Virus record (IMG/VR): IMGVR_UViG_3300013093_000065
Coordinates: 1 to 51,865 of that record
DNA: 51,865 bases
Strand: one strand, 5' to 3'
Origin: a virus
Position 1 is the first letter of the stretch; each line of letters opens with the position of its first letter. Positions 18,015-47,557 of the stretch are shown piece after piece. The notes beneath the pieces were generated by a model, which was not told where the DNA came from, made no database searches, and saw only the letters and a list, made by a program, of their open reading frames with translations. The translations under genes were made by a program, and so were the position numbers.

Positions 18015-21000
18015 ATGGCTTTTGCTAACGTAAACATTGGCGCACACACTTCGGATGGTACCGGTGACTCTCTAAGAGTTGCCTTCCAAAAAATAAATCA
18101 GAATTTTGCTAACATAGCATCCATGGGCAATCCGGGTCCAGTTCAATCTGTAAATGGTCATTCCGGAAATGTTGTATTAACAGCTGCTGATATTGTTGGT
18201 GTAGCATCTGTAGGCTATGCCGATGGAGTAGGTTATGCTGGTAATACCTATACTAATTTTGTATTTGATAACATACAGTCTAACGTTTATAATTTTGTAG
18301 CTGGAAACTTAGCCTCCTCTATCAGTCAAACTGCTACCAATTTGGTCATCACCGGAGATTTATTATCTCCGATTAATGCTAACATAGCCGGTGCTAATGC
18401 TGCCATTGCTTCGTTACAAAGTACTGTTGGCGGTTATTCATCGAGCATTTCTTCGTTGAGTAATAATTTAAGCAACCAACAAGGATTGATTTCAGCATTA
18501 CAGGCAAATGCTGCTACTCAAGCTGGTCAGATTGCCGGAGTTAGTTCTGCAATCGTCACAGCTAACACACAATTAAAAGGCTACACAGACACAGCGATTT
18601 CTACAGCAATCAACACAGCAATTAATAATTTGATTAATTCTGCACCAGGTACCTTAGATACCTTGGGAGAAATTGCTGCCAACTTAGCCACTGATGCTGG
18701 AGCAATTGGCGGTATACTAAACAGTATTACCAATATTAACAGCAATATCAATGCTACTAATTCAGCAATTATATCTGCAAACACAGATATGAAGGCCTAT
18801 GTCGATACTGCAAACAGCATCCAAGCTGGACAGATTTCTACTTTAATTTCTAATACTGGTGTAATTGCCGGTGAATTAAATTCTCTATTGACTAACTTTA
18901 GCAACACACAAAATCTTGTTAGTCAAAACACGTCAGACATTGAAACAATTAATACCAGATTAGAAGGCGGAAATACTGCTATCATTGTTTCTAACTCAGC
19001 TGTGGTTAGTTATGTAAACGACAAGGTCTCTTTATTACAAGCTGGACTTAACGGAGCCAATGCGGCCATAGTAACTGCCAACACAACAATGAAAGGTTAT
19101 GTTGATGCTGTTACTGCGGCGTGGACTGCAAACGCTGTTGAACAGCTTAGTCAGATTACCGGAGCCAATGCGGCCATAGTAACTGCTAACACAGCATTAA
19201 AATCCTATGTTGACGACAACATTGGATCTACCAATAGCAATGTAGCATCTGTCAACTCTAACATCGGTGCAATAAATTCTACCATTGCATCCATTGAAAC
19301 AAATTTAAATGGCTACTCAGATTTATTTGGCTACATTACATCTAATATAAATCAAATTAATTCCAACGTTACTGCTACAAATGCCGCAATCGTTACAGCC
19401 AATTCTGCGATGCAATTATATGTTGTTGACTATGTCGATCAGCAGATCATTGCTGTTGGCAATTACGGTAACATCAATGTTGCTGCCTATTTGCCAACTC
19501 ATACCGGTAACGTTGCAGGCCAAAACTTTATTACTTCGCAGGGTATATTCTGGTCTAATGGTGCACCATTTACGTCGGCTAATTTAACACACGACTTGCC
19601 TTTATACTCCGGCAACGTTTCGGCAAAAACTTTATTAGTAACAGGTGATAGTACCACAGGTTTCTATCCTATCTATTCAGGACTACAATCTGGTTACTTT
19701 ATAATTCCAAACTTGCTTGGACAGTTCAGTGCCAACGCAAACAGTTACGCACAGTTAAACATTACAAATATTAATAGCGGTAGTGAAGCAACAACAGACT
19801 ACGTTGCTACCGCCAACAACGGAACTGACAGTTCTTTTTATGTTGACGTAGGTATTGCTGGCAGTAACTACGATGGTACACACCCAGCAAACAATTTAGG
19901 TACTGCAATTTTCCCTAATGATGCTTACATTTATACTCAGGGCAATAATCCATCAGACACCGGAGGTAATTTATTAGTCGGTGCTGTTACTCCTGGTAAG
20001 GGAATTTTCTTTATAGCTGGCGGTCACGATCAGGCAAATATTGCTGTTGCAATTCATAATCCAAATACCGCACCAATCAGCAGTGGTACAGGTACGTTGG
20101 TAGTTAAAGGTGGCGTGGGCATTGGCGGAAATATCAACGCCGGTCTGTTTAATACCAGCCTACACAATATTAAAGGTAATTTATTACTTGGTCAAGGTAA
20201 TGTCATTGCATCTGCCGATACAGTTTTAACTATTAATTTAAACACTGACACACCAATCACATCGGCTAACAATACCGTTCATCTTAGCGGAGCAAGTGGT
20301 CACAGTACTTTCTTAGGTATAGATTCCTTTGGCACAGGATTTGTGTCCGGTATTAATTTACGTACTTCCAGAGGTAATTCCGGTTCTCCATCGGCTTCGC
20401 AGGCAGGTGACATATTAGGAATTGTTGTTTCCAGAGGCTATGGTAGCACTGGATATTCTGCGGTAACTGGTTCTGGTAGCCAAGTTAGTTTCTCAGCAGC
20501 AGAAAACTATACCGATACGGCACAGGGTTCTTACATTAACCTACGTCCAGTACCAATTGGTTCTAACGTAGCTACAACGGCTGTAAATATCAGCGCAACT
20601 ACTACAACTATTGCCGCATCTACCGCAAGTACAAGTTTCCTAAATGGTGCCTTGGTAGTTGGTGGTGGAGCAGGTATAAATGGTAATTTAAATGTATTGG
20701 CCAACGTTGGTGCAGGAAATATCAGTGCTGGCGGTAGCATCACATCTACAAATAACGTTACTGCTGCTAATTATTTCTTTGCCAACGGTACAAACATTTT
20801 AAGTACTATCAGCAAGCCATCCAGAACTATATTAACAGCAACTACGGCAACATTGGCCGCAGGTGCCAGCGCAAACGTATTGCTTGGTGGCTACAAAGGC
20901 TATTACCTGTACAGTATTCAAGTTGATAATGCTGCCTGGGTAACTTTATATACATCAAACTCCTCGGCTACAACAGACTATAGTCGTTCAATATCAACTG

Positions 21001-21194
21001 ATCCAACGCCAGGATCTGGCGTTATTGCTGAAGCTATTACCAGTGGCGCTGCTACACAATACTTTACACCAGGCGTAATAGGATACAATGCTGAATCGCC
21101 AGCAACTGCAATTATTCCAATGAAGGTCTACAACAACGGTGGATCAAGTGCAACCATTACTGTACAGTTAACTTTAGTACAAACGGAGCAGTAA
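18015..21194 (+). CDS. Large tail-fibre-like virion protein
   Basis: 1059 residues from ATG 18015 (AAGGA 11 bases upstream; an upstream TTG at 17979 lies before the late motif and is rejected). The N-terminus has the GDSLRVAFQKINQNFANI module, shared in looser form with the gene at 22855. Residues 90-480 are a low-complexity helical repeat built on GANAAIVTANTxxKxYVD, likely a trimeric coiled coil. Later come beta-repeat blocks (TGTLVVKGGVGIGGNI, GALVVGGGAGINGNL) and a beta-sandwich-like end. Function in host attachment is inferred from this architecture and the neighbours. Confidence 0.82.
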   Translation: MAFANVNIGAHTSDGTGDSLRVAFQKINQNFANIASMGNPGPVQSVNGHSGNVVLTAADIVGVASVGYADGVGYAGNTYTNFVFDNIQSNVYNFVAGNLASSISQTATNLVITGDLLSPINANIAGANAAIASLQSTVGGYSSSISSLSNNLSNQQGLISALQANAATQAGQIAGVSSAIVTANTQLKGYTDTAISTAINTAINNLINSAPGTLDTLGEIAANLATDAGAIGGILNSITNINSNINATNSAIISANTDMKAYVDTANSIQAGQISTLISNTGVIAGELNSLLTNFSNTQNLVSQNTSDIETINTRLEGGNTAIIVSNSAVVSYVNDKVSLLQAGLNGANAAIVTANTTMKGYVDAVTAAWTANAVEQLSQITGANAAIVTANTALKSYVDDNIGSTNSNVASVNSNIGAINSTIASIETNLNGYSDLFGYITSNINQINSNVTATNAAIVTANSAMQLYVVDYVDQQIIAVGNYGNINVAAYLPTHTGNVAGQNFITSQGIFWSNGAPFTSANLTHDLPLYSGNVSAKTLLVTGDSTTGFYPIYSGLQSGYFIIPNLLGQFSANANSYAQLNITNINSGSEATTDYVATANNGTDSSFYVDVGIAGSNYDGTHPANNLGTAIFPNDAYIYTQGNNPSDTGGNLLVGAVTPGKGIFFIAGGHDQANIAVAIHNPNTAPISSGTGTLVVKGGVGIGGNINAGLFNTSLHNIKGNLLLGQGNVIASADTVLTINLNTDTPITSANNTVHLSGASGHSTFLGIDSFGTGFVSGINLRTSRGNSGSPSASQAGDILGIVVSRGYGSTGYSAVTGSGSQVSFSAAENYTDTAQGSYINLRPVPIGSNVATTAVNISATTTTIAASTASTSFLNGALVVGGGAGINGNLNVLANVGAGNISAGGSITSTNNVTAANYFFANGTNILSTISKPSRTILTATTATLAAGASANVLLGGYKGYYLYSIQVDNAAWVTLYTSNSSATTDYSRSISTDPTPGSGVIAEAITSGAATQYFTPGVIGYNAESPATAIIPMKVYNNGGSSATITVQLTLVQTEQ
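19054..19197 (+). repeat. Near-identical DNA repeat inside the fibre gene
   Basis: A 25-base block beginning GGAGCCAATGCGGCC occurs at about 19054 and again at about 19162, 108 bases apart, encoding the GANAAIVTAN unit of the coiled-coil repeat. Recent duplication or exchange of repeat units is likely. Confidence 0.7.
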
Positions 21195-21195
21195 C

Positions 21196-22794
21196 ATGGC
21201 AACCACTGTGCCATCCGATATCAGTAAACAACTACTGATCAGCATCTACGTTAAACGAGACGTTCACGACAACGGCATGACCTTAAAGGAATATGCCGAT
21301 GCTGTTATTGCCGGTACACATCCAATTTTAGATCATGATGAATATGTGTATCAATTTGGCGCCATACAAGAAGAAATTGATTTGGTAGTTAATTGGGCAA
21401 CTGCCAATGGTCTACAGGTTATTTCGTCTGATGCAGGAATAGCAACAGTTAAACTACAAGGTACCGTAGGATTGTTCAACAGTTTGTTTAATATCACATT
21501 AGTTGATGTAACTGATGACACAAGAACTTATGTAAATTATACAGGGACTGTTACTATTCCCAGTGCCATCATAGGCGTTGTAGAAAATGTATTGGGCTTT
21601 GATCAAAGTTTTGTGGCCACCAAACACGCAGTTACCGTTCCGCTCAACGCTACTAACCCCGATACAGTCAATCCAAACTACTCTGGTGCTGTTACTCCTG
21701 TTGACGTAGCTACAGCATATAATTTACCCGCAGGCGATGGTTATGGTGGATGTATTGGAATTTTTGAATTAACATATTCTGGTTACGTCACCGGATATAG
21801 TACAACCGATGTAACCAATAGTTTTAGTCGCATTGGTTTGACTGCTCCAACTATTGTAAACATAAATGTCGACGGAGCCTCTGCAAGTACTACCAGCGAC
21901 GCTGAAAGTATGTTAGACATTTACTGTGCTGGTGCAGTTGCACCTCGAGCAAAAATAGCCTACTATACAGCACCCAACGGCGGAACAACCGGCATTAATG
22001 ATAATATTCTTGCTGCTGCTGCGGATACTGTAAATAATCCCAGCGTGTTGAGTATTAGTTGGGGAATAGGCGATGGCAATTCTTTTGACACCGCCATGCA
22101 AACTTGTGTAGTCAAGGGAATTACAGTTATTGTAAGTTCCGGAGACCACGGGGCAACGGGCGGTGCAATCGATTCCAGCAGTTGTACCAGCCCTTACATG
22201 ATCAGTGCAGGTGGCACAAATATTGGAATTACCAGTGGTACAAAAATAGGCGAGTATGCCTGGGTCAGCAGTGGCGGCGGAGTTAGTTCTTCTCAACCAA
22301 GACCAAGTTGGCAAAATGGATTGACCTATACTACTAAAACCAACACCGGAACTTTGGGTACACCAACTGCCCTACCGCGTCGAGGTATTCCCGATATCAG
22401 TGCACCAGCAGATCCTTACACAGGATATCAATTTTATGTAAACGGTATACTACAACAATATGGTGGAACCAGTGCTGCCGCTCCGTTTTTAGCCGGGGCT
22501 ATAGTTAGATTAAATCAATTATTGGGCAAAAGAATTAGTTTACCAATGTCTACTTTTTACGGAAATACCACAGCATTTACAGACATTACCGGAGGCGATA
22601 ACATCAGCGGTTATTCAATTGGTTATGCAGCTACCACTGGATGGGACGCTGCCACTGGGTTAGGTGTTATAAATGGCCCTAATTTCTACAAATTATTTAA
22701 AACTGGCTCGACTTTTCCAAGACAAAACTACGGTTTTAGACCCACAACTGGCGTCGGTTATCCCAGACCTTATCAGAAACTTACCGGTCGTTAA
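21196..22794 (+). CDS. Peptidase S53 (sedolisin/kumamolisin family) with propeptide
   Basis: 532 residues. Residues 1-145 resemble the pro-kumamolisin activation domain, with a FGFxQ-like junction. The catalytic residues of the family are all present: E237 and D241 (DAESMLDIYCAG, the normal four-residue spacing), D317 (VSSGDHGATGG, oxyanion Asp) and S426 (YGGTSAAAPFLAG). SISWGIGD and a C-terminal DITGG...DAATGLG calcium site complete the fold. S53 enzymes are acid endopeptidases that self-activate. No signal peptide is visible. It lies between two fibre genes, two bases after the first, with GGAG before its ATG, so it is probably a virion protein that processes fibres or digests host surface protein. 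Either role is inference. Confidence 0.9.
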   Translation: MATTVPSDISKQLLISIYVKRDVHDNGMTLKEYADAVIAGTHPILDHDEYVYQFGAIQEEIDLVVNWATANGLQVISSDAGIATVKLQGTVGLFNSLFNITLVDVTDDTRTYVNYTGTVTIPSAIIGVVENVLGFDQSFVATKHAVTVPLNATNPDTVNPNYSGAVTPVDVATAYNLPAGDGYGGCIGIFELTYSGYVTGYSTTDVTNSFSRIGLTAPTIVNINVDGASASTTSDAESMLDIYCAGAVAPRAKIAYYTAPNGGTTGINDNILAAAADTVNNPSVLSISWGIGDGNSFDTAMQTCVVKGITVIVSSGDHGATGGAIDSSSCTSPYMISAGGTNIGITSGTKIGEYAWVSSGGGVSSSQPRPSWQNGLTYTTKTNTGTLGTPTALPRRGIPDISAPADPYTGYQFYVNGILQQYGGTSAAAPFLAGAIVRLNQLLGKRISLPMSTFYGNTTAFTDITGGDNISGYSIGYAATTGWDAATGLGVINGPNFYKLFKTGSTFPRQNYGFRPTTGVGYPRPYQKLTGR

Positions 22795-22854: not shown

Positions 22855-24891
22855 ATGACCGTATCAATCGTTACCGTTAACACCAGCACACCAAACAGCG
22901 GTGGTGGCGACACTATCTATACCGCTTTTAGCAAAGTTAATAATAATACCGGCAATTTGGCCTTAGCAGTTAATAATCTGCAGGCAACCTATGCTAACAC
23001 AAGCTATGGTGTATTTGCCAACATTACTGTTACCAATCAAGTAATTGGACGTATGAACTTTAGTTCGGCAGGCGGCGGCGGCGTGTTTGTTGATGGTAGC
23101 CCTGTTGCAACTTCTGCTGCTTCGTTTACGGGCGGTAATGTACCAAGTCAAGCTAATTTTATCGCAACTACCAGCAGCACAAGCAAAACAACTGGTGCCG
23201 TTGTAGTCTATGGTGGCATGGGCGTTGCTCAAGATGTAAACATAGGTGGCTCAGTTAATTCTACAGGCGACAGTACAATTGGTGGTAACTTAACTGTCCA
23301 AGGAGCAAAAGACAGTTCAAACAGCTCTACTGGAGCAATAGTTGTTACTGGTGGTTTGGGTGTAGGTAAAAATCTAAACGCTGGACAAAATATATATGTT
23401 GGCGGTGCAGCCAGTGTTACTGGTACACTCAGCGCAGGTGGTGACACAACTATATCATCTACAACAATAAGCGTTGGTTCTACATCAGGTGCATTAATTG
23501 TGTCCGGTGGTACAGGTATCGCTGGCAACCTATACATTGGCGGAACAACTAACACTCAAGATTTAAATGTCGCTGGTAATATTACCGTTACTGGTAACGC
23601 GGTATTAGGATCGCAAACTGTTACTGTTACAGACAATTTAATTGAATTACACACTTATGCAAATTTGGCACCGTTAACGTCCGACGATGGCAAAGACATT
23701 GGTATTCGTTTCCATTATTATCGTGCAGGTGGACTTGGTGACAAAGAAGCAGCGTTAACCCTTGCACACGATACCAACGCAATGGAATTTTATATCACTG
23801 CAACCGAAACAGCAGGACAAATTTCAGGCACCTATGGTACTTACAAAGGCGGTGCTGTTATTGCTGCAAATACTACAGCGGCCACAAGTACCTCAACAGG
23901 TGCTCTACAAGTAGCAGGTGGCGCAGGTATTGTTGGAAATTTATATGTTGGTGGAAATATTATATCCACCAGCACTGGCTTTACACAAGTTGCTTCTGGT
24001 AATTCAGCACAACGTCCAAATGGTCCAAACAATGGTATGATACGCTATAACAGCGACATTACCAGCTTTGAAGGTTACTATGCTGGTGCATGGTCAAGTC
24101 TTGGCGGGGTTAAATCAGTTGATGGCAAGGCATATATACAAGCAGAAAATTCTGCGGGTGCCGGTGACGATGTATTACGTTTTTATGCTGGAGATTCTGG
24201 ATCAAGTACACAGGTAATGTGGGCCAGCACAAGTAACATTAAAATATTACCCACTACAACATCAACCAGTACTACTACCGGCGCACTTCAAGTAGCTGGT
24301 GGCGTTGGTGTTGCCGGTAATATCTACTCTGGCGGTACTGTTAGTGCTACTTCTGTTACAGCAACAAACTTAACAGGAACTCTGCAAACAGCCTCACAAA
24401 CAAATATTACATCAGTAGGTACCTTAAGTGGATTAACAGTCAGCGCCGCTATTGTACCAAATGGTAACGGTACGGTTACATTGGGCTCATCAGGCGCTTG
24501 GTGGAGTAGCATTTACGGTACTGCTGTTCACGCACAGTACGCTGACTTAGCAGAAAAATATCTTGCCGACGCAGATTATGATGTTGGTACTGTTGTTGCT
24601 GTTGGTGGCAATAAAGAAGTTACAGCCTGCCAAGCAGGTGATTTGGCAATTGGAGCTGTTAGTGCTAATCCAGCATTTAAAATGAATGACGGCCTAACCA
24701 ACGGAACATTTATTGCACTTAAAGGTCGTGTGCCAGTTAAGGTAGTTGGTCCCGTAGTCAAAGGACAACGATTAATAGCCGGCGCCAGTGGATGTGCTAC
24801 CGCAGTTTTGCAATCCAATGATGTATTTGCTATAGCATTAGAAACTAATAATGATACTGGTGTTAAATTAGTTGAAGCAGTAATTCTTTAA
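22855..24891 (+). CDS. Tail-fibre-like protein with repeated beta modules
   Basis: 678 residues. The N-terminus (GGGDTIYTAFSKVNNNTGNL) resembles the GDxLxxAFxKxNxN module of the gene at 18015. At least five repeats follow of the form (S)TSTGALxVxGGxGVxGNLYxGG, about residues 98-125, 155-185, 200-228, 337-365 and 470-500, likely beta-helical or triple-stranded. The C-terminal domain (YADLAEKYLADADYDVGTVV to the end) is the shape I associate with fibre and G2-type C-terminal domains of phages; self-cleavage is possible but no catalytic pair is identified. Confidence 0.82.
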   Translation: MTVSIVTVNTSTPNSGGGDTIYTAFSKVNNNTGNLALAVNNLQATYANTSYGVFANITVTNQVIGRMNFSSAGGGGVFVDGSPVATSAASFTGGNVPSQANFIATTSSTSKTTGAVVVYGGMGVAQDVNIGGSVNSTGDSTIGGNLTVQGAKDSSNSSTGAIVVTGGLGVGKNLNAGQNIYVGGAASVTGTLSAGGDTTISSTTISVGSTSGALIVSGGTGIAGNLYIGGTTNTQDLNVAGNITVTGNAVLGSQTVTVTDNLIELHTYANLAPLTSDDGKDIGIRFHYYRAGGLGDKEAALTLAHDTNAMEFYITATETAGQISGTYGTYKGGAVIAANTTAATSTSTGALQVAGGAGIVGNLYVGGNIISTSTGFTQVASGNSAQRPNGPNNGMIRYNSDITSFEGYYAGAWSSLGGVKSVDGKAYIQAENSAGAGDDVLRFYAGDSGSSTQVMWASTSNIKILPTTTSTSTTTGALQVAGGVGVAGNIYSGGTVSATSVTATNLTGTLQTASQTNITSVGTLSGLTVSAAIVPNGNGTVTLGSSGAWWSSIYGTAVHAQYADLAEKYLADADYDVGTVVAVGGNKEVTACQAGDLAIGAVSANPAFKMNDGLTNGTFIALKGRVPVKVVGPVVKGQRLIAGASGCATAVLQSNDVFAIALETNNDTGVKLVEAVIL

Positions 24892-29180: not shown

Positions 29181-29438
29181 ATGCATCCATTAGGCACAGA
29201 TTTAAGTAATTTAAAAGACGAAGAATTACAAACAAAATTTAGTGAGTTATCCAAACGGCTAACTCAATGCTATCGGTTTGGCCCTCAATCGGTTATACCA
29301 CAATTACAAATGCTTATGGGCGACTACCAAGAAGAAATTCAACGTCGTAATCAAAAGACCATGGACGAGCTAATGAAAAAAGGCGAAAAGGGTGGCGATG
29401 GCAAAAATGGTTACAAAGGTATTATTGACATTTCATGA
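29181..29438 (+). CDS. Small helical hypothetical protein
   Basis: 85 residues, charged and helical (LKDEELQTKFSELSKRL, then LMGDYQEEIQRRNQK) with a Gly/Lys-rich tail. Its GGGAG ribosome site lies in the right arm of the upstream hairpin. Transcripts starting at the promoter here lack the left arm, so the site is free; read-through RNA would mask it. Function unknown. Confidence 0.7.
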   Translation: MHPLGTDLSNLKDEELQTKFSELSKRLTQCYRFGPQSVIPQLQMLMGDYQEEIQRRNQKTMDELMKKGEKGGDGKNGYKGIIDIS

Positions 29439-29959
29439 ACTATAACAAGTTTGGACAAGCCTATACAACAGAGGCTGAACTCTGCGACCTGTTGTATCAA
29501 AATCCCGAGTTGGATATCAGCCGCTTTATGGTTGAAGACCCAGGAGTTTATAATCAAAGCAGAGAACAAACCTATAGTGACTTACCAATACTACGACGCT
29601 ATGTACCAGTTGACTACAAGGATGATGTTCCTGTAGAGTTGTTTGACCATGCACAACAGAGTCGTTGGTATATGCCAGAAGAATATCAAACATTAGACAT
29701 AGCCAAACATGTTTTAAGTTTATGCCAAACTGATGCAGAATTACAACGTGTGGGCGAAGAATTAATACTTTACCAAGAACGTGATTTATTCAACTTATTG
29801 CGTTACCTAAAATATTTTGTTGATACTATGCGTAAAAATTCAGTATTATGGGGCCTGGGACGAGGTAGTAGTGTAGCAAGTTATGTTTTATACTTGTTAG
29901 GAGTACATCGTGTCAATTCAATGTATTACGATTTAGACATTAAAGAATTTTTAAAATAG
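29435..29959 (+). CDS. DNA polymerase III alpha-like fragment, non-polymerase role likely
   Basis: 174 residues. The C-terminus (residues 140-174) reads WGLGRGSSVASYVLYLLGVHRVNS then YDLDIKEFL, which parallels the palm entry of bacterial DnaE/PolC (GRGSxxGSxVxYxLxIxxxxPxxxxLxFERFL). The catalytic aspartates of the palm, normally far downstream, are absent because the protein stops. No PHP metal motif is seen. It cannot be a polymerase by itself; a decoy or regulator of replication, or a relic, are possible. ATGA overlap with the upstream gene. Confidence 0.55.
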   Translation: MNYNKFGQAYTTEAELCDLLYQNPELDISRFMVEDPGVYNQSREQTYSDLPILRRYVPVDYKDDVPVELFDHAQQSRWYMPEEYQTLDIAKHVLSLCQTDAELQRVGEELILYQERDLFNLLRYLKYFVDTMRKNSVLWGLGRGSSVASYVLYLLGVHRVNSMYYDLDIKEFLK

Positions 29960-32900: not shown

Positions 32901-33276
32901 AAATATCAATCTTGTAGCGTTTTATTATATGAAACCACGTGCTGGTGTAAACACTACGGTCAAAGGCTGGATGGATAATCCCAATAATGTTCGTTGGGAC
33001 GAGCGAGTAGAAATCACCCGTGGTCTTAAAAAAGACAGCGTTCATGCTAAAGTCATTATGGACCTTAGTAATAAAACTGTTACCAAAAATGCCTGGGGCG
33101 ATAATAAAGATTTTGACGGATTGTTTAAGCATTTCTTTACAGGATATCATCAATATATCACAACTGTAATGACCCAGTTGGATCCTGAATATTTTAATAA
33201 AATGCTCGACGAGATGCAGGCAGAATTAGACGCCGAGAAAGAACCAGAAGCAAGTGCAGAGCCCGTTGCCCAGTAA
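32890..33276 (+). CDS. Conserved phage protein after the clamp loader
   Basis: 128 residues with TTG start 32890 (a later ATG at 32929 is possible). The beta-rich core NTTVKGWMDNPNNVRWDERVEITRGLK and VHAKVIMDLSNKTVTKN is well conserved from memory in T4-like phages; the Glu/Ala tail is disordered. It occupies the position of the gp62 subunit, but I see no gp62 signature. Function unknown. Confidence 0.65.
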   Translation: MNNKNINLVAFYYMKPRAGVNTTVKGWMDNPNNVRWDERVEITRGLKKDSVHAKVIMDLSNKTVTKNAWGDNKDFDGLFKHFFTGYHQYITTVMTQLDPEYFNKMLDEMQAELDAEKEPEASAEPVAQ

Positions 33277-34447
33277 TACCTTTTGTGTATTACCCTGGAC
33301 TCATTTTTTTCACGAGCCCAACGGCAAAATTATGCCCTGTTGTTCTGCCAATAGCCGTTCAGCAGATTTTGGAAATATCCAGGACTTTAATTCTGCAGAC
33401 CAAATTGTCAACACCGACGCTATGAAACAACTGCGTCAAGATATGTTAGCAGGACGTCAAAATCCTGCGTGTAGTCAATGTTATCGAGAAGAATCCCATG
33501 GTCTAACCAGTTTTAGGCAACATAAGAATAACGACATCATTGATGTTAATCTCAAAGCCTTACTCGATAACACCCAACAAGACGGAACTTTGGACAACTT
33601 TAAAATACAGTATTGGGATTCAAGGTTCAGCAACGTATGTAATTATAAATGCCGTATGTGTGGCCCAGATTATAGTCATACCTGGGCCGAGGAATCATAT
33701 CGCGGATCCAATCGCAAAGATTATGTAATCAAAGCACACAATACAGACAATTGGTCAACTATTATTAATCGTTATGGCGATTTGACTCAATTGAAAGAAG
33801 TGTACTTTGCCGGTGGAGAATCACTTTATCAAGTCGAACACTGGTCTATGCTTGATCAATTAGACCAATTGGGCCTACACAATATAAAAATAACCTATAC
33901 TACTAATCTTAGTAAACTTGGATTTGGGCAACGTAGGTTAGAAGATTATTTAAAAAGATTTACAAATGTATTGTTTATTGTAAGTTTAGATGCCGTTGGG
34001 CCGCTGTTGGAATATATACGTTCTGGAAGTAGTTGGACTACTACACAAAACAATATCAATACTATACTTCCATTAGCAAGATTAAAATACAATATTGTAA
34101 TAACAGTTTACAATGTATTACACTTATCGGAGTTAATTGATTTTGCAGTTGATCATACAACAAATTTTGCAGGCACTGATTTTACAGTAGCACACGAACC
34201 TGTTGCACAAAATATTACTAATCTTCCAACAGAATTAAAAGATTTGGCCAGGGATAGATTATTATCCAACCGCAACTATTCAATTCTTAAAGATAAGATA
34301 GATGCTGTGATAAATTATATGTACGACTCGCCGGTCAGCAGTTGGCAGGCAACTATTGCAGAAACCAATCAATTAGACATAATTAGAAACGAAAGCGTAT
34401 TATCAGTAGTACCAGAATTTAAGGAATATTGGCATGAAAAGATTTAA
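33254..34447 (+). CDS. Radical SAM enzyme with twitch/SPASM-like cysteines
   Basis: 397 residues. The 4Fe-4S cluster motif CX3CX2C is at C129, C133 and C136 (CNYKCRMCG). VYFAGGESL is the GGE motif for SAM methionine binding. Further cysteines in the N-terminus (C11, C29, C30, C73, C76: FCVLPWTH, MPCCSA, ACSQC) suggest an auxiliary cluster domain placed before the core rather than after it. Substrate unknown; peptide or small-molecule modification is typical. Start GTG 33254 (TTG 33266 is possible), overlapping the upstream gene. A cupin gene overlaps its end. Confidence 0.88.
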   Translation: MQSPLPSNTFCVLPWTHFFHEPNGKIMPCCSANSRSADFGNIQDFNSADQIVNTDAMKQLRQDMLAGRQNPACSQCYREESHGLTSFRQHKNNDIIDVNLKALLDNTQQDGTLDNFKIQYWDSRFSNVCNYKCRMCGPDYSHTWAEESYRGSNRKDYVIKAHNTDNWSTIINRYGDLTQLKEVYFAGGESLYQVEHWSMLDQLDQLGLHNIKITYTTNLSKLGFGQRRLEDYLKRFTNVLFIVSLDAVGPLLEYIRSGSSWTTTQNNINTILPLARLKYNIVITVYNVLHLSELIDFAVDHTTNFAGTDFTVAHEPVAQNITNLPTELKDLARDRLLSNRNYSILKDKIDAVINYMYDSPVSSWQATIAETNQLDIIRNESVLSVVPEFKEYWHEKI

Positions 34448-35723: not shown

Positions 35724-36297
35724 GATTATATTAGTTGATGCAGATGGTGTGTTGTTAGATTGGGAATATGCGTTTGACGTTTACCTACAGCAACACGGTT
35801 TCAACAAAATAGAAGGCGGCAATTTAAAATATGATATTGGCAAGCGGTACGGCATTGATCGTGAACAAGGTAAACGATTAATAAAACTGTTCAACGAGTC
35901 GGCACATATTGGATTCCTGCCAGCATTACGTGACAGTATGTTTTATGTAAAACGTCTACATGAAGAACATGGTTATGTATTTCACTGTATTACAAGTCTA
36001 AGTCGAGATGAAAATAGTCAAGAGTTGCGTAGAATGAATTTGCGTAAACTGTTTGGCAAAACAGCATTTGAAAAGTTTGTATTTTTAGACACTGGTGCTG
36101 ACAAAGATTTAGCATTAGAACCTTATCGCAACAGTGGTTATTACTGGATCGAAGATAAAATTACCAATGCCCAAGTTGGACATAGCCTGGGACTTAAGAG
36201 CCTGTTAATGGAACACGGACACAATATGGATTTTGTTGATCCCAATATTCCACTTGTTAAAAACTGGAAAGAAGTTTACGAACGTATAGTGGGTTAA
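35713..36297 (+). CDS. HAD-superfamily hydrolase, deoxyribonucleotidase-like
   Basis: 194 residues. Motif I is VDADGVLLDWE with the nucleophile D9 and acid D11. CITSLSRD is a motif II-like strand, and YWIEDK near 155 is motif IV-like. The DxDGVLxDW opening is that of the 5'(3')-deoxyribonucleotidase group, which controls nucleotide pools. It ends in TTAA, shared with the stop of the convergent gene. Confidence 0.75.
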   Translation: MKNKIILVDADGVLLDWEYAFDVYLQQHGFNKIEGGNLKYDIGKRYGIDREQGKRLIKLFNESAHIGFLPALRDSMFYVKRLHEEHGYVFHCITSLSRDENSQELRRMNLRKLFGKTAFEKFVFLDTGADKDLALEPYRNSGYYWIEDKITNAQVGHSLGLKSLLMEHGHNMDFVDPNIPLVKNWKEVYERIVG

Positions 36298-37313
36298 CTA
36301 CCACAGGTTTCATTGCAAGTGTAATGGCGCCCATTGGCTACAGAATCGATTGACCAGGTTTTTTCTAATTCATTAAACCAGTCAATTGATTTTTCAATAC
36401 CAATTTCTAAAGCATTATTTTCTTTTAATACCGCACGAGTGTGATCCGTTCCAGGACGTATTACGTTGGTGCGTGGAGAAAATCCAATCCAACAACAAGG
36501 ATAAACTTCTCCATTGCTTTGTACATATATTTCTCGTCCTTGCAGTATCTGACATTTAATTTCTTTTGCAGGCGTATCTTTATAAAGCATATCCACGTGA
36601 TTGTCTAAATTTTGTTTTAGACGATCTGTCATTATTTTTCGATAATCTAATAACTTTGTAAAATTTAATTCGTGTGTTGGCTCACCAATGCTGTGTTGAT
36701 AGTTGCCGTCTCTATCATAAACTGCGGTATTATTCCTACCGTGATTTACAAGATTAAAACTGGCAAATCCCATGTCTTGACTGCGTTGTTTGGCTTCGGC
36801 TCTTTGATGTTCATTAAAATCAAATTCGATCATGACCCACATAGCTCGTCCACCAGCATTGATAAATTTTTGAGCATTGCTCATTATTAAATTAAAGTCG
36901 GTGTATTGTCTGTATAGATGGTGCGTATCCTCGAGACCGTCAATTCTAAACCCTACACTGACACGTGGAATCTGTCCCAGTGCTTCCCATATCTTGGGTT
37001 GCCCTGATCCGTTTGTACTAATATCTATGTTTAATTGTGGGTTAGATTCAGCAAAATATTGAACAATAGGTAAAGCATCACGACAAGTAACAAAGTCGCC
37101 ATAATTACCATTAATGTATAGTCTGCGTAGTTGTTTTAGAAATTCAACGGGAAAGATTTTTTTGGCTTCAGCCAAGGTCATGTCATGCACTACGAAATCG
37201 CCCAGGTCTTCAATGTCAACCCCGCGAAGATTGCGTGGACACTCAGGACAGGCTGCGTTGCATCGGCTACTTATTTCAAGATGAACTACTCTTATATCGG
37301 AATATGAAAACAT
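36294..37313 (-). CDS. Radical SAM/SPASM protein
   Basis: 339 residues. The radical SAM cluster motif is C18, C22, C25 (SRCNAACPECPRN), near the N-terminus as usual. The C-terminal SPASM-like part has CQILQGREIYVQSNGEVYPCCWIG and a final CNETCGS, which would hold auxiliary clusters. SPASM enzymes often modify peptides. Start 37313 is preceded on the minus strand by an exact TATAAATA six bases ahead, so the mRNA may be leaderless; no ribosome site is present. It needs reduced Fe-S clusters, linking it to the ErpA gene in function. Confidence 0.85.
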   Translation of the reverse strand: MFSYSDIRVVHLEISSRCNAACPECPRNLRGVDIEDLGDFVVHDMTLAEAKKIFPVEFLKQLRRLYINGNYGDFVTCRDALPIVQYFAESNPQLNIDISTNGSGQPKIWEALGQIPRVSVGFRIDGLEDTHHLYRQYTDFNLIMSNAQKFINAGGRAMWVMIEFDFNEHQRAEAKQRSQDMGFASFNLVNHGRNNTAVYDRDGNYQHSIGEPTHELNFTKLLDYRKIMTDRLKQNLDNHVDMLYKDTPAKEIKCQILQGREIYVQSNGEVYPCCWIGFSPRTNVIRPGTDHTRAVLKENNALEIGIEKSIDWFNELEKTWSIDSVANGRHYTCNETCGS

Positions 37314-45256: not shown

Positions 45257-45286
45257 TTTTTATGAGGCACTAACTTGGAAGACCGA

Positions 45287-47557
45287 ATGATCCAACCTAA
45301 TCCTGAGATAGAAGTAGTTATTAAAGCTGCTACAGATTCAGCAAAATCACTTAATCACGAATACGTAACCTTAGAACATCTGCTGAGAAGTTTAGTTGCT
45401 TATGATCCGTTCCGCGATTTGCTAAACGCCTATGGTGTTGATGTTGACGGATTACTTAGAGATCTCGATGAACATTTGGTTAGTCAAACATATCTAATCA
45501 GCGATAAAGAAAATTCAGAACCAAAGAAAACTCATGCGTTAGAGCGTGTGTTTAACCGTGCATTTACACAGGTACTATTTTCAGGACGCCAACACATGCA
45601 GGTTATCGACCTGTATGTTAGTATTCAAGCAGAACACAGTAGCCATGCTAATTACTTCTTGTTAAAATATGGCGTAGAGGATCGCCAGGCATTTATTGAT
45701 TTTTATAACAAAAACTATTCCGGATCGCGTGGACGTCGTGTTGCCGCTGGAATGAAAGCAACCGAAGTATTAAATGAATACTGCACTGATTTAAATGCTC
45801 ACGCTAAGAATGGAAAAATTGATCCAGTGATTGGCCGTGAGTTTGAAATTGATGAAATAGCACAGGTATTGGCTAAACGTAATAAGAGTAATGTACTATT
45901 AATCGGAGATCCAGGAGTTGGTAAAACAGCCATTGCCGAAGGACTTGCTCGTAACATTGTCAACGGTGAAGTGCCTGAATATCTAAAAGGGTATACTGTT
46001 TACAATTTAGACATTGGTACATTATTAGCTGGTAGTAAGTATCGCGGTGACTTTGAAGAAAAACTTAAAGATGTTATTGCCGCATTGATTGCCAAAGGCA
46101 AATGTATTTTGTTTATCGATGAAGCACATCAAATGCGTGGTGCTGGGTCAGCAAGTAATAGTTCAGTAGACTTTGGTAATATGATTAAACCAGCTCTGGG
46201 CAAAGGTCAACTTAAGGTTATTGCGTCAACTACCTGGGAAGAATACACACAGAGCTTTGAAAAGGATCGTGCTTTAATGCGCAGATTCTACCGCTTGACA
46301 GTTGAAGAGCCAACTCCAGCCGTGGCTAAAGATATTCTTAAAGGTCTACGTGGATACTTTGAAGAATTCCATGGCGGAATAATTGATGACTCGGCAATAG
46401 ATGCTGCCGTTGATTTATCGGTGCGTTATCAAACAGACAAACGTTTACCAGACAAAGCAATTGACCTATTAGATTCTGCCTGTGCTCGATTAAAAATTAA
46501 AGATACAGATTGGACTGTGTATAAGAGTCACATTGTTGATATTATCAGTAAGTTTACAAAAATTCCAGCAGATCAAATTGGCACCGAGTCTGCTAAAAAT
46601 TTAGATCAGTTAGAAAACAATATTAAAACTAAACTCTACGGCCAAGATCAAGTAGTAGATACTCTATTAGAAAAAATCTATGTTAGTCGAGCTGGATTAA
46701 AAGCATTAAACAAACCCATTGGTAGTTACTTATTTTTAGGACCCACAGGCACAGGTAAAACCGAGTTGGCGAAACTGTTGTCTGAGAACCTCGGGATGAA
46801 ACTGTTACGGTACGATATGAGTGAGTACCAAGAAAAGCATTCAGCCAGTAAGTTGATTGGTGCTCCCCCAGGGTACGTTGGGTACGACGATGGTAACTTA
46901 GGTGGTGGTCTGTTAATTTCAGATATTGAAAAAAATCCTAATTCGGTTATTTTGTTTGACGAAATTGAAAAAGCTCACCCCGATGTCGCCAGTGTACTAT
47001 TAAGTCTAATGGACGAAGGTGTAGTTACCAGTAGTAATGGTAAGAAAGCCGACTGTCGCAACTGTATTGTTATCATGACATCTAACTTAGGTGCTGCCGA
47101 TAACGAAAGAAAGAGCATTGGATTTGGCAGTATTGACAAAACCGACGAAGATGATAAAGCAGTCAAAGACTTTTTTAAACCTGAGTTCCGTAATCGTTTA
47201 GATGGTATTTGCAAGTTTAACAAGTTGGATTCTATCAGCATCAAGAAAATTGTTGCTAAGTTTATTAACGAAGTCAACGAATTACTAAGTGAAAAACTAA
47301 TACGCATTAGGCTAACCGAAGCCGCAGTTGATCATTTAGCTGAAGTTGGATATGATGCAAAAATGGGTGCTCGCCCATTGGCACGTAAGATCAATGACCT
47401 AATTAAAGTGCCATTGAGTAAGAAAATTTTATTTGAACGTATACCCGAAAGAAGTACGATCATAGTCGATTATGTCGATGAAAAGTTAGTGCTGAACTCT
47501 GTAACTAACACAAATCAAGCAACTGTGGACGAAGATGGATATATCGTATTGGAATAA
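45287..47557 (+). CDS. ClpA-like AAA+ unfoldase
   Basis: 756 residues from ATG 45287 (GGAAG lies 5-6 bases ahead; TTG 45275 is the alternative). An N domain (residues 5-145), then D1 with Walker A GDPGVGKT (207-214) and Walker B ILFIDEAHQMRG, and D2 with Walker A GPTGTGKT (485-492), Walker B ILFDEIEKAHPDV, an SRAG and a GAPPGYVGYDDG pore loop. There is no long middle domain, so it is ClpA-type rather than ClpB. The loop ERKSIGFG (IGF at 611-613) is where ClpA docks to ClpP; a phage unfoldase may therefore direct host ClpP. No ClpP gene is present in the window. Confidence 0.92.
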   Translation: MIQPNPEIEVVIKAATDSAKSLNHEYVTLEHLLRSLVAYDPFRDLLNAYGVDVDGLLRDLDEHLVSQTYLISDKENSEPKKTHALERVFNRAFTQVLFSGRQHMQVIDLYVSIQAEHSSHANYFLLKYGVEDRQAFIDFYNKNYSGSRGRRVAAGMKATEVLNEYCTDLNAHAKNGKIDPVIGREFEIDEIAQVLAKRNKSNVLLIGDPGVGKTAIAEGLARNIVNGEVPEYLKGYTVYNLDIGTLLAGSKYRGDFEEKLKDVIAALIAKGKCILFIDEAHQMRGAGSASNSSVDFGNMIKPALGKGQLKVIASTTWEEYTQSFEKDRALMRRFYRLTVEEPTPAVAKDILKGLRGYFEEFHGGIIDDSAIDAAVDLSVRYQTDKRLPDKAIDLLDSACARLKIKDTDWTVYKSHIVDIISKFTKIPADQIGTESAKNLDQLENNIKTKLYGQDQVVDTLLEKIYVSRAGLKALNKPIGSYLFLGPTGTGKTELAKLLSENLGMKLLRYDMSEYQEKHSASKLIGAPPGYVGYDDGNLGGGLLISDIEKNPNSVILFDEIEKAHPDVASVLLSLMDEGVVTSSNGKKADCRNCIVIMTSNLGAADNERKSIGFGSIDKTDEDDKAVKDFFKPEFRNRLDGICKFNKLDSISIKKIVAKFINEVNELLSEKLIRIRLTEAAVDHLAEVGYDAKMGARPLARKINDLIKVPLSKKILFERIPERSTIIVDYVDEKLVLNSVTNTNQATVDEDGYIVLE

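Follow-up and report, generated by a model that had tools for sequence, protein, structure and literature searches.

The gene at positions 21196 to 22794 of the window (the whole viral stretch of 51,865 nucleotides analyzed here) encodes an S53 sedolisin that is probably a fibre-associated virion protease, docked via its C-terminal tail and cutting a host-surface protein. This reading is based on sequence comparison, and draws on the position of the gene behind a fibre gene with a conserved end, on a tail common to two protease families, and on fusions in relatives. The relevant features are the following:

18015–21194, + strand: partner fibre gene with a variable body and a conserved C-terminal domain (phrog_9627/15343 at the C-terminus)
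20859–21191, + strand: conserved fibre C-terminal domain (C-domain) of about 105–111 aa that marks the cassette (alignment)
21185–21188, + strand: likely ribosome-binding site (GGAG) within the 3' end of the fibre gene, 7 nt ahead of the protease ATG (sequence)
21196–22794, + strand: S53 sedolisin of the kumamolisin type, 532 aa, ATG start (Pfam, phmmer and profile searches against the PDB, residue mapping)
21196–21615, + strand: Pro-kumamolisin activation domain, about residues 1–140 (Pfam match at residues 29–136)
21616–21684, + strand: variable linker, residues 141–163, the expected zone of propeptide cleavage (family alignment, pLDDT, kumamolisin alignment)
21685–22707, + strand: catalytic S53 domain, residues 164–504, with E237/D241/D317/S426 and calcium residues D463/D484 (alignment)
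22708–22791, + strand: C-terminal tail beyond the S53 fold, residues 505–532, STFPRQNYGFRPTTGVGYPRPYQKLTGR, a putative docking or assembly peptide (common to phage S8 proteases)
22855–24891, + strand: downstream virion structural or fibre protein (PHROG evidence)

The initial annotation described a complete sedolisin with a propeptide and intact catalytic and calcium sites, and this description holds: the reading frame runs from ATG to stop, and the Pfam and PDB matches agree. The Pfam model Pro-kuma_activ (PF09286) matches residues 29–136 with 46.5 bits (cut-off 23.5), and the Peptidase_S8 superfamily model matches residues 244–442 above its cut-off. Residues 36–494 align with pro-kumamolisin (1t1e) in a phmmer search of the PDB (E = 4.7e-63), and a profile of 49 phage relatives matches the same entry over residues 5–503 (E = 3.9e-118). 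E237, D241 and S426 and the oxyanion residue D317 align with kumamolisin E78, D82, S278 and D164; residue mapping further equates E191 with E32 and W289 with W129, and the calcium site (D463, I464, G482, D484) with D316, I317, G336 and D338. As judged from these alignments, four features of a kumamolisin-type S53 enzyme are present: the catalytic Glu-Asp-Ser, the oxyanion Asp, the calcium site and the activation domain. No PHROG match was found for the protein (P0001). The structure model is weak (mean pLDDT 58.5, and under 50 at residues 138–165), and a subtilisin-like fold is implied by the full-length homology.

Residue 1 of mature kumamolisin aligns near residue 161, and the mature sedolisin is expected to begin in the variable linker, around residues 141–163. 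The cleavage near residue 145 that had been proposed is accordingly only an approximate position. An N-terminal hydrophobic signal is absent from the 532-aa protein, as had been observed. This is not odd, however, since cellular kumamolisin-like relatives also lack an obvious signal peptide, so that the argument drawn from its absence is uninformative.

The placement of the gene in a fibre setting was also right, with a fibre gene carrying the conserved C-domain upstream and structural proteins downstream. The listed reading frame of the partner fibre opens at TTG 17979; the ATG at 18015 yields a fibre-like N-terminus (MAFANVNIGAHTSDGTGDSLRVAFQKINQNF). Directly upstream of the fibre gene lies a gene for an IscA-like Fe-S biogenesis protein (PF01521, 17626–17952). 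The C-domain is 44–58% identical to cyanophage and lake-phage domains and found no match in the PDB. The fibre gene stops at TAA 21192–21194, which leaves a gap of 1 nt to the protease ATG. A fibre gene with the same C-domain and a body of widely variable length precedes the sedolisin in 48 of the 54 loci that have upstream sequence, and the gap is 1 nt in 45 loci. In many relatives, the C-terminal domain of the 22855–24891 protein is conserved at a distance of approximately 6 kb past the sedolisin gene. The downstream fibre was considered as the partner in place of the upstream one and is not favoured, as the downstream neighbour varies.

A search of viral databases for S53 proteins had been suggested, and two scans of IMG/VR (30 and 71 loci) gave 57 distinct sedolisin relatives, a few of them truncated by contig ends; none was found in the INPHARED phages. 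The E/D/D/S tetrad is kept in every phage relative that covers these positions, and the calcium residue Asp463 is conserved with a single exception (L098, which has Glu). Pairwise dN/dS is 0.03–0.17 in most of the diverged pairs. The sedolisin is a true phage gene under purifying selection. Two classes can be distinguished, of which class I keeps the propeptide and the other (clade II, n = 17) is propeptide-less and forms one clade that the peptidase-domain tree fully supports. We rejected a loss of function in this second class, as its tetrad is intact and its dN/dS is 0.03–0.09. Self-activation, which the initial annotation had proposed, is plausible in the propeptide-bearing members but is not a required feature, because a whole clade has no propeptide. 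In some relatives the sedolisin is fused to other domains, namely a Gly-rich tail-fibre domain (L084) or Ig/cadherin-like repeats (L069 and L090). Cellular relatives, identified by tblastn against plasmids in Burkholderiaceae and others, are 27–34% identical; exact-pattern scans of genome contigs for such relatives gave zero matches.

The [G + C] content is 0.43 at the sedolisin locus and 0.40 for the window. An independent IMG/VR contig of 127 kb spans the locus and matches 19.6 kb at 99.5% identity, and the locus is therefore not a chimera; a host-like break in the flanks, which had been named as a possible refutation, is not seen. The clamp loader and ClpA-like ATPase of the window are closest to those of PA5oct-like Pseudomonas jumbo phages and Sinorhizobium phage Phosso, with best identities of 58% and 46%, respectively. 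The ATPase gene (45275–47557, phrog_4871) has Phosso, an Acinetobacter phage record and PA5oct-like jumbo phages as its nearest matches. Near the clamp loader, a 174-aa reading frame with a partial match to DNA polymerase III alpha (29435–29959; PF07733, phrog_11127) represents a short or split polymerase-like gene, and two radical-SAM-like proteins are encoded at 33254–34447 (+ strand) and 36294–37313 (− strand). Among long records with sedolisin relatives, a T4-type capsid protein Gp23 is present on 9 of the 17 searched and a terminase on 5 of 30.

Cyanophage fibre genes also carry this C-domain. The gene behind it is annotated as a peptidase or subtilisin-like protease in S-CREM1, S-H38, S-H9-1, S-WAM2 and Sf-FR1, and belongs to the same protease family, annotated as hypothetical, in S-RSM4, S-MbCM7, ACG-2014j and ACG-2014e. 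These cyanophage proteases are S8 subtilases with an intact D-H-S triad, and not sedolisins. Conversely, the window sedolisin carries the S53 tetrad instead of D-H-S and does not belong to the phrog_9158 group, though it occupies the same slot. Against the reading as a cassette, the C-domain is followed in ACG-2014i, Sf-CH1b and S-BM3 by a non-protease without the tail. S-BM3 has a separate gene of 7.9 kb, annotated as peptidase S8 (T4-GC_519), that encodes a giant protein with a protease domain (L157:1-1295).

We searched IMG/VR with the fibre C-domain alone, which gave at least 599 matching stretches, and analyzed the best 80; the sample leans towards the lineage of the window because only these best matches were kept. 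Among these best 80 of at least 599, the next gene encodes a serine protease in 67 loci (profile-based classes: S53 in 30 and S8 in 37), is of another kind in 10 and is absent in 3. Counted per distinct C-domain (n = 53), 26 are followed by an S8 protease, 20 by an S53 protease and 7 by neither, which gives a protease in 46 of 53. Elsewhere in the surveyed loci only two protease segments were found. The S8 partners keep D-H-S in 42 of the 42 cases where it is covered.

On the C-domain tree, which is built from a short alignment and has many weak forks, S53 and S8 partners alternate, with a total of 7 changes between them. Support is strong for one swap, in which a locus with an S8 protease (L222) groups with two S53 loci (L065 and L080) that have near-identical C-domains. 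Judging by these groupings, S53 and S8 proteases have evidently replaced each other behind near-identical fibre domains. In four loci (L219, L221, L223 and L224) the fibre with the C-domain is directly followed by a reading frame of 202 aa, which matches in size the usual next gene after the protease, an arrangement as if the protease had been cleanly deleted. In P-SSM2 (L244:3727-6323) and S-SCSM1 (L243:1684-9083), an S8 protease stands behind fibres with a different C-terminal domain, and the pairing may extend beyond the C-domain studied here.

The two protease families also have a C-terminal motif in common, G..FPK.N...RP..G..YPR. Residues 505–532 of the window sedolisin conform to the pattern G..[FY]PK.N...RP..G..[YFW]PR, and most phage sedolisins end in, or enter their fused part via, a tail of approximately 25 residues (TFPKxNYGFRPxxGxxYPRxTTGxR), which some fusions replace. 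In the S8 partners the tail sits 3–7 residues short of the C-terminus or immediately ahead of an additional domain (for example YPKKNMKKRPSSGAVWPRPRIR and FPKRNFKARPESGQAYPRSRIRR). A profile made from S53 tails only scores at least 8 bits in 26 of the 42 distinct S8 partners, compared with 0 of 42 reversed sequences and 0 of 253 other reading frames of the same loci, and none of the non-protease reading frames of the loci contains the motif. The tail is absent from cellular kumamolisin-like sedolisins, which stop where the peptidase fold ends; likewise, the S53 matches in the PDB stop at about residues 503–506 of the window protein. We also considered whether many structural proteins use this tail as a general virion anchor and rejected this, as all exact matches in IMG/VR are sedolisins. 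The strongest hint as to what the tail does is that two protease families of different catalytic class have one slot and one tail, which suggests an unchanging binding partner, most simply the fibre C-domain or virion components next to it.

Further indications of a link with the virion come from the cyanophages. The S8 relative of S-SCSM1 is a protein of 1411 aa with C-terminal extensions that is annotated as 'baseplate wedge subunit (virion protein)', and for this phage the published description gives 45 virion proteins detected by mass spectrometry (PMC9602691); the position of this protease behind a fibre with a different C-terminal domain limits the parallel. The main text of the S-CREM1 and S-CREM2 proteome papers does not name the partner protease. 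Cyanophage S8 partners are also found fused to phrog_677, a baseplate-to-fibre connector domain. The partner in S-MbCM7 (L149:4281-7205) joins a tailed S8 protease to an esterase-like domain (AXE1/BD-FAE) and ends in phrog_677, as a multi-enzyme fibre partner. A virion-borne, fibre-linked protease, as the initial annotation had it, remains the best reading in view of the cassette, the tail in common with S8 proteases, the fusions and the S-SCSM1 annotation, with the location on the virion being a likely rather than an observed part of it.

We propose a fibre cassette of two genes, in which this gene supplies the protease and the other a fibre that ends in the conserved C-domain. The protease, of the subtilisin-fold clan (S53 here and S8 elsewhere), would be translated straight after the fibre, and class I members would be made in the cytoplasm as zymogens that presumably activate themselves. 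The enzyme would use its conserved C-terminal tail to dock on the fibre or baseplate and would travel with the particle. Once at the surface of a cell, it might cut outer-membrane proteins, an S-layer, adhesins or matrix protein, and so clear a path or expose a receptor, as tailspike depolymerases do for sugars. S53 sedolisins usually act at acid pH, and the same preference would be expected here; in lake water (the presumed habitat), if neutral, it would count against a surface role.

A protease that matures the fibre, the main competing reading, could explain both why the gene lies 1 nt behind a fibre gene with a conserved C-domain and why protease and C-domain travel together. It would cleave the partner fibre, for example by removing a C-terminal domain that had served as a chaperone for folding or trimerisation, and would not have to remain part of the particle. 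We consider this unlikely. The C-domain occurs without any protease in 7 of 53 distinct domains and in several cyanophages, and fibre processing is therefore not obligatory. Moreover, one conserved cleavage site should keep one specificity, whereas S53 and S8 enzymes differ in catalysis and pH optimum, and the fusions to esterase-like, Ig-like and fibre domains are unsuited to such an enzyme.

It is less probable still that the protein is an injected or intracellular effector that targets proteins of the host, either following entry or in the course of takeover, and is found in the fibre operon by chance. Such a role would agree with the missing signal peptide and with the proteins without structural function reported in cyanophage virions (PMC10665884), but it accounts poorly for a near-invariant place behind one fibre domain in divergent phages, for the common tail and for the fusions to fibre domains. 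The loss of the propeptide in a whole clade, where regulation of activity may consequently not matter, could point to a fold without enzymatic function, serving as an assembly chaperone or fibre cap with catalysis incidental. This is very improbable, given that E/D/D/S (S53) and D/H/S (S8) are never lost, the propeptide-less clade included. A host-derived protease acquired by chance (a moron) or an assembly artefact, for which the cellular relatives in Burkholderiaceae and others could be cited, has a negligible chance of being correct in the face of 57 distinct phage relatives with conserved synteny, the independent contig and a phage-specific tail.

The fibre-associated protease that we favour can be compared with several known systems. 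It resembles kumamolisin and pro-kumamolisin (MEROPS S53; PDB 1t1e and 1gt9) over its full length, in the propeptide, E/D/D/S, oxyanion Asp and calcium site; unlike these, the phage protein continues past the S53 fold into a conserved tail and its gene follows a fibre gene, and one phage clade has no propeptide. With the cyanophage 'subtilisin-like serine protease' (phrog_9158/phrog_3677; S-CREM1, S-H38, S-RSM4 and S-WAM2; T4-GC_292) it has in common the slot, the C-domain, a spacing of 0–1 nt, a related tail, an N-terminal extension and the lack of a signal peptide. The cyanophage enzyme, however, has S8 D-H-S where the window sedolisin has S53 E-D-S, and is found in marine cyanophages as opposed to the lineage of the window. 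Virion-associated depolymerases and tailspikes are alike in the proposed role of a fibre-linked surface hydrolase exchanged between phages, but the substrate here would be protein and not polysaccharide, and the enzyme would be a separate polypeptide joined by its tail and not part of the fibre chain. A peptidase domain in the baseplate hub of phage A-1(L) has reported lytic activity on host cells (PMC10966104). Both peptidases would be tied to the tail machine, although the A-1(L) peptidase is a different domain that is located on the hub, acts on the cell wall, and is neither fibre-linked nor of the S53 or S8 family.

Individual cyanophage subtilisin-like genes were already annotated, and Sullivan et al. 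(PMC3037559) drew attention to peptidase genes that are syntenic in co-isolated cyanophages. Within the open-licence PMC literature, we found no link of sedolisins or kumamolisin with phages, and no description of the pairing of fibre domain and protease, of the S53–S8 exchange or of the common tail. Sugar-clearing virion enzymes are well established; to our knowledge, fibre-linked proteases have hardly been described. There is, in our estimation, an even chance that many T4-related phages carry a modular, fibre-mounted protease device for breaching protein barriers at the host surface, composed of a docking C-domain and interchangeable S53 or S8 enzymes on a common tail, with proteases swapped like receptor-binding tips. 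If so, this would be a widespread and overlooked module, with the C-domain present in at least 599 IMG/VR stretches, and it would assign a role to a large set of cyanophage genes now labelled 'hypothetical' or 'subtilisin-like'. It would also place sedolisins in phages, and a short tail may serve to dock enzymes onto phage fibres.
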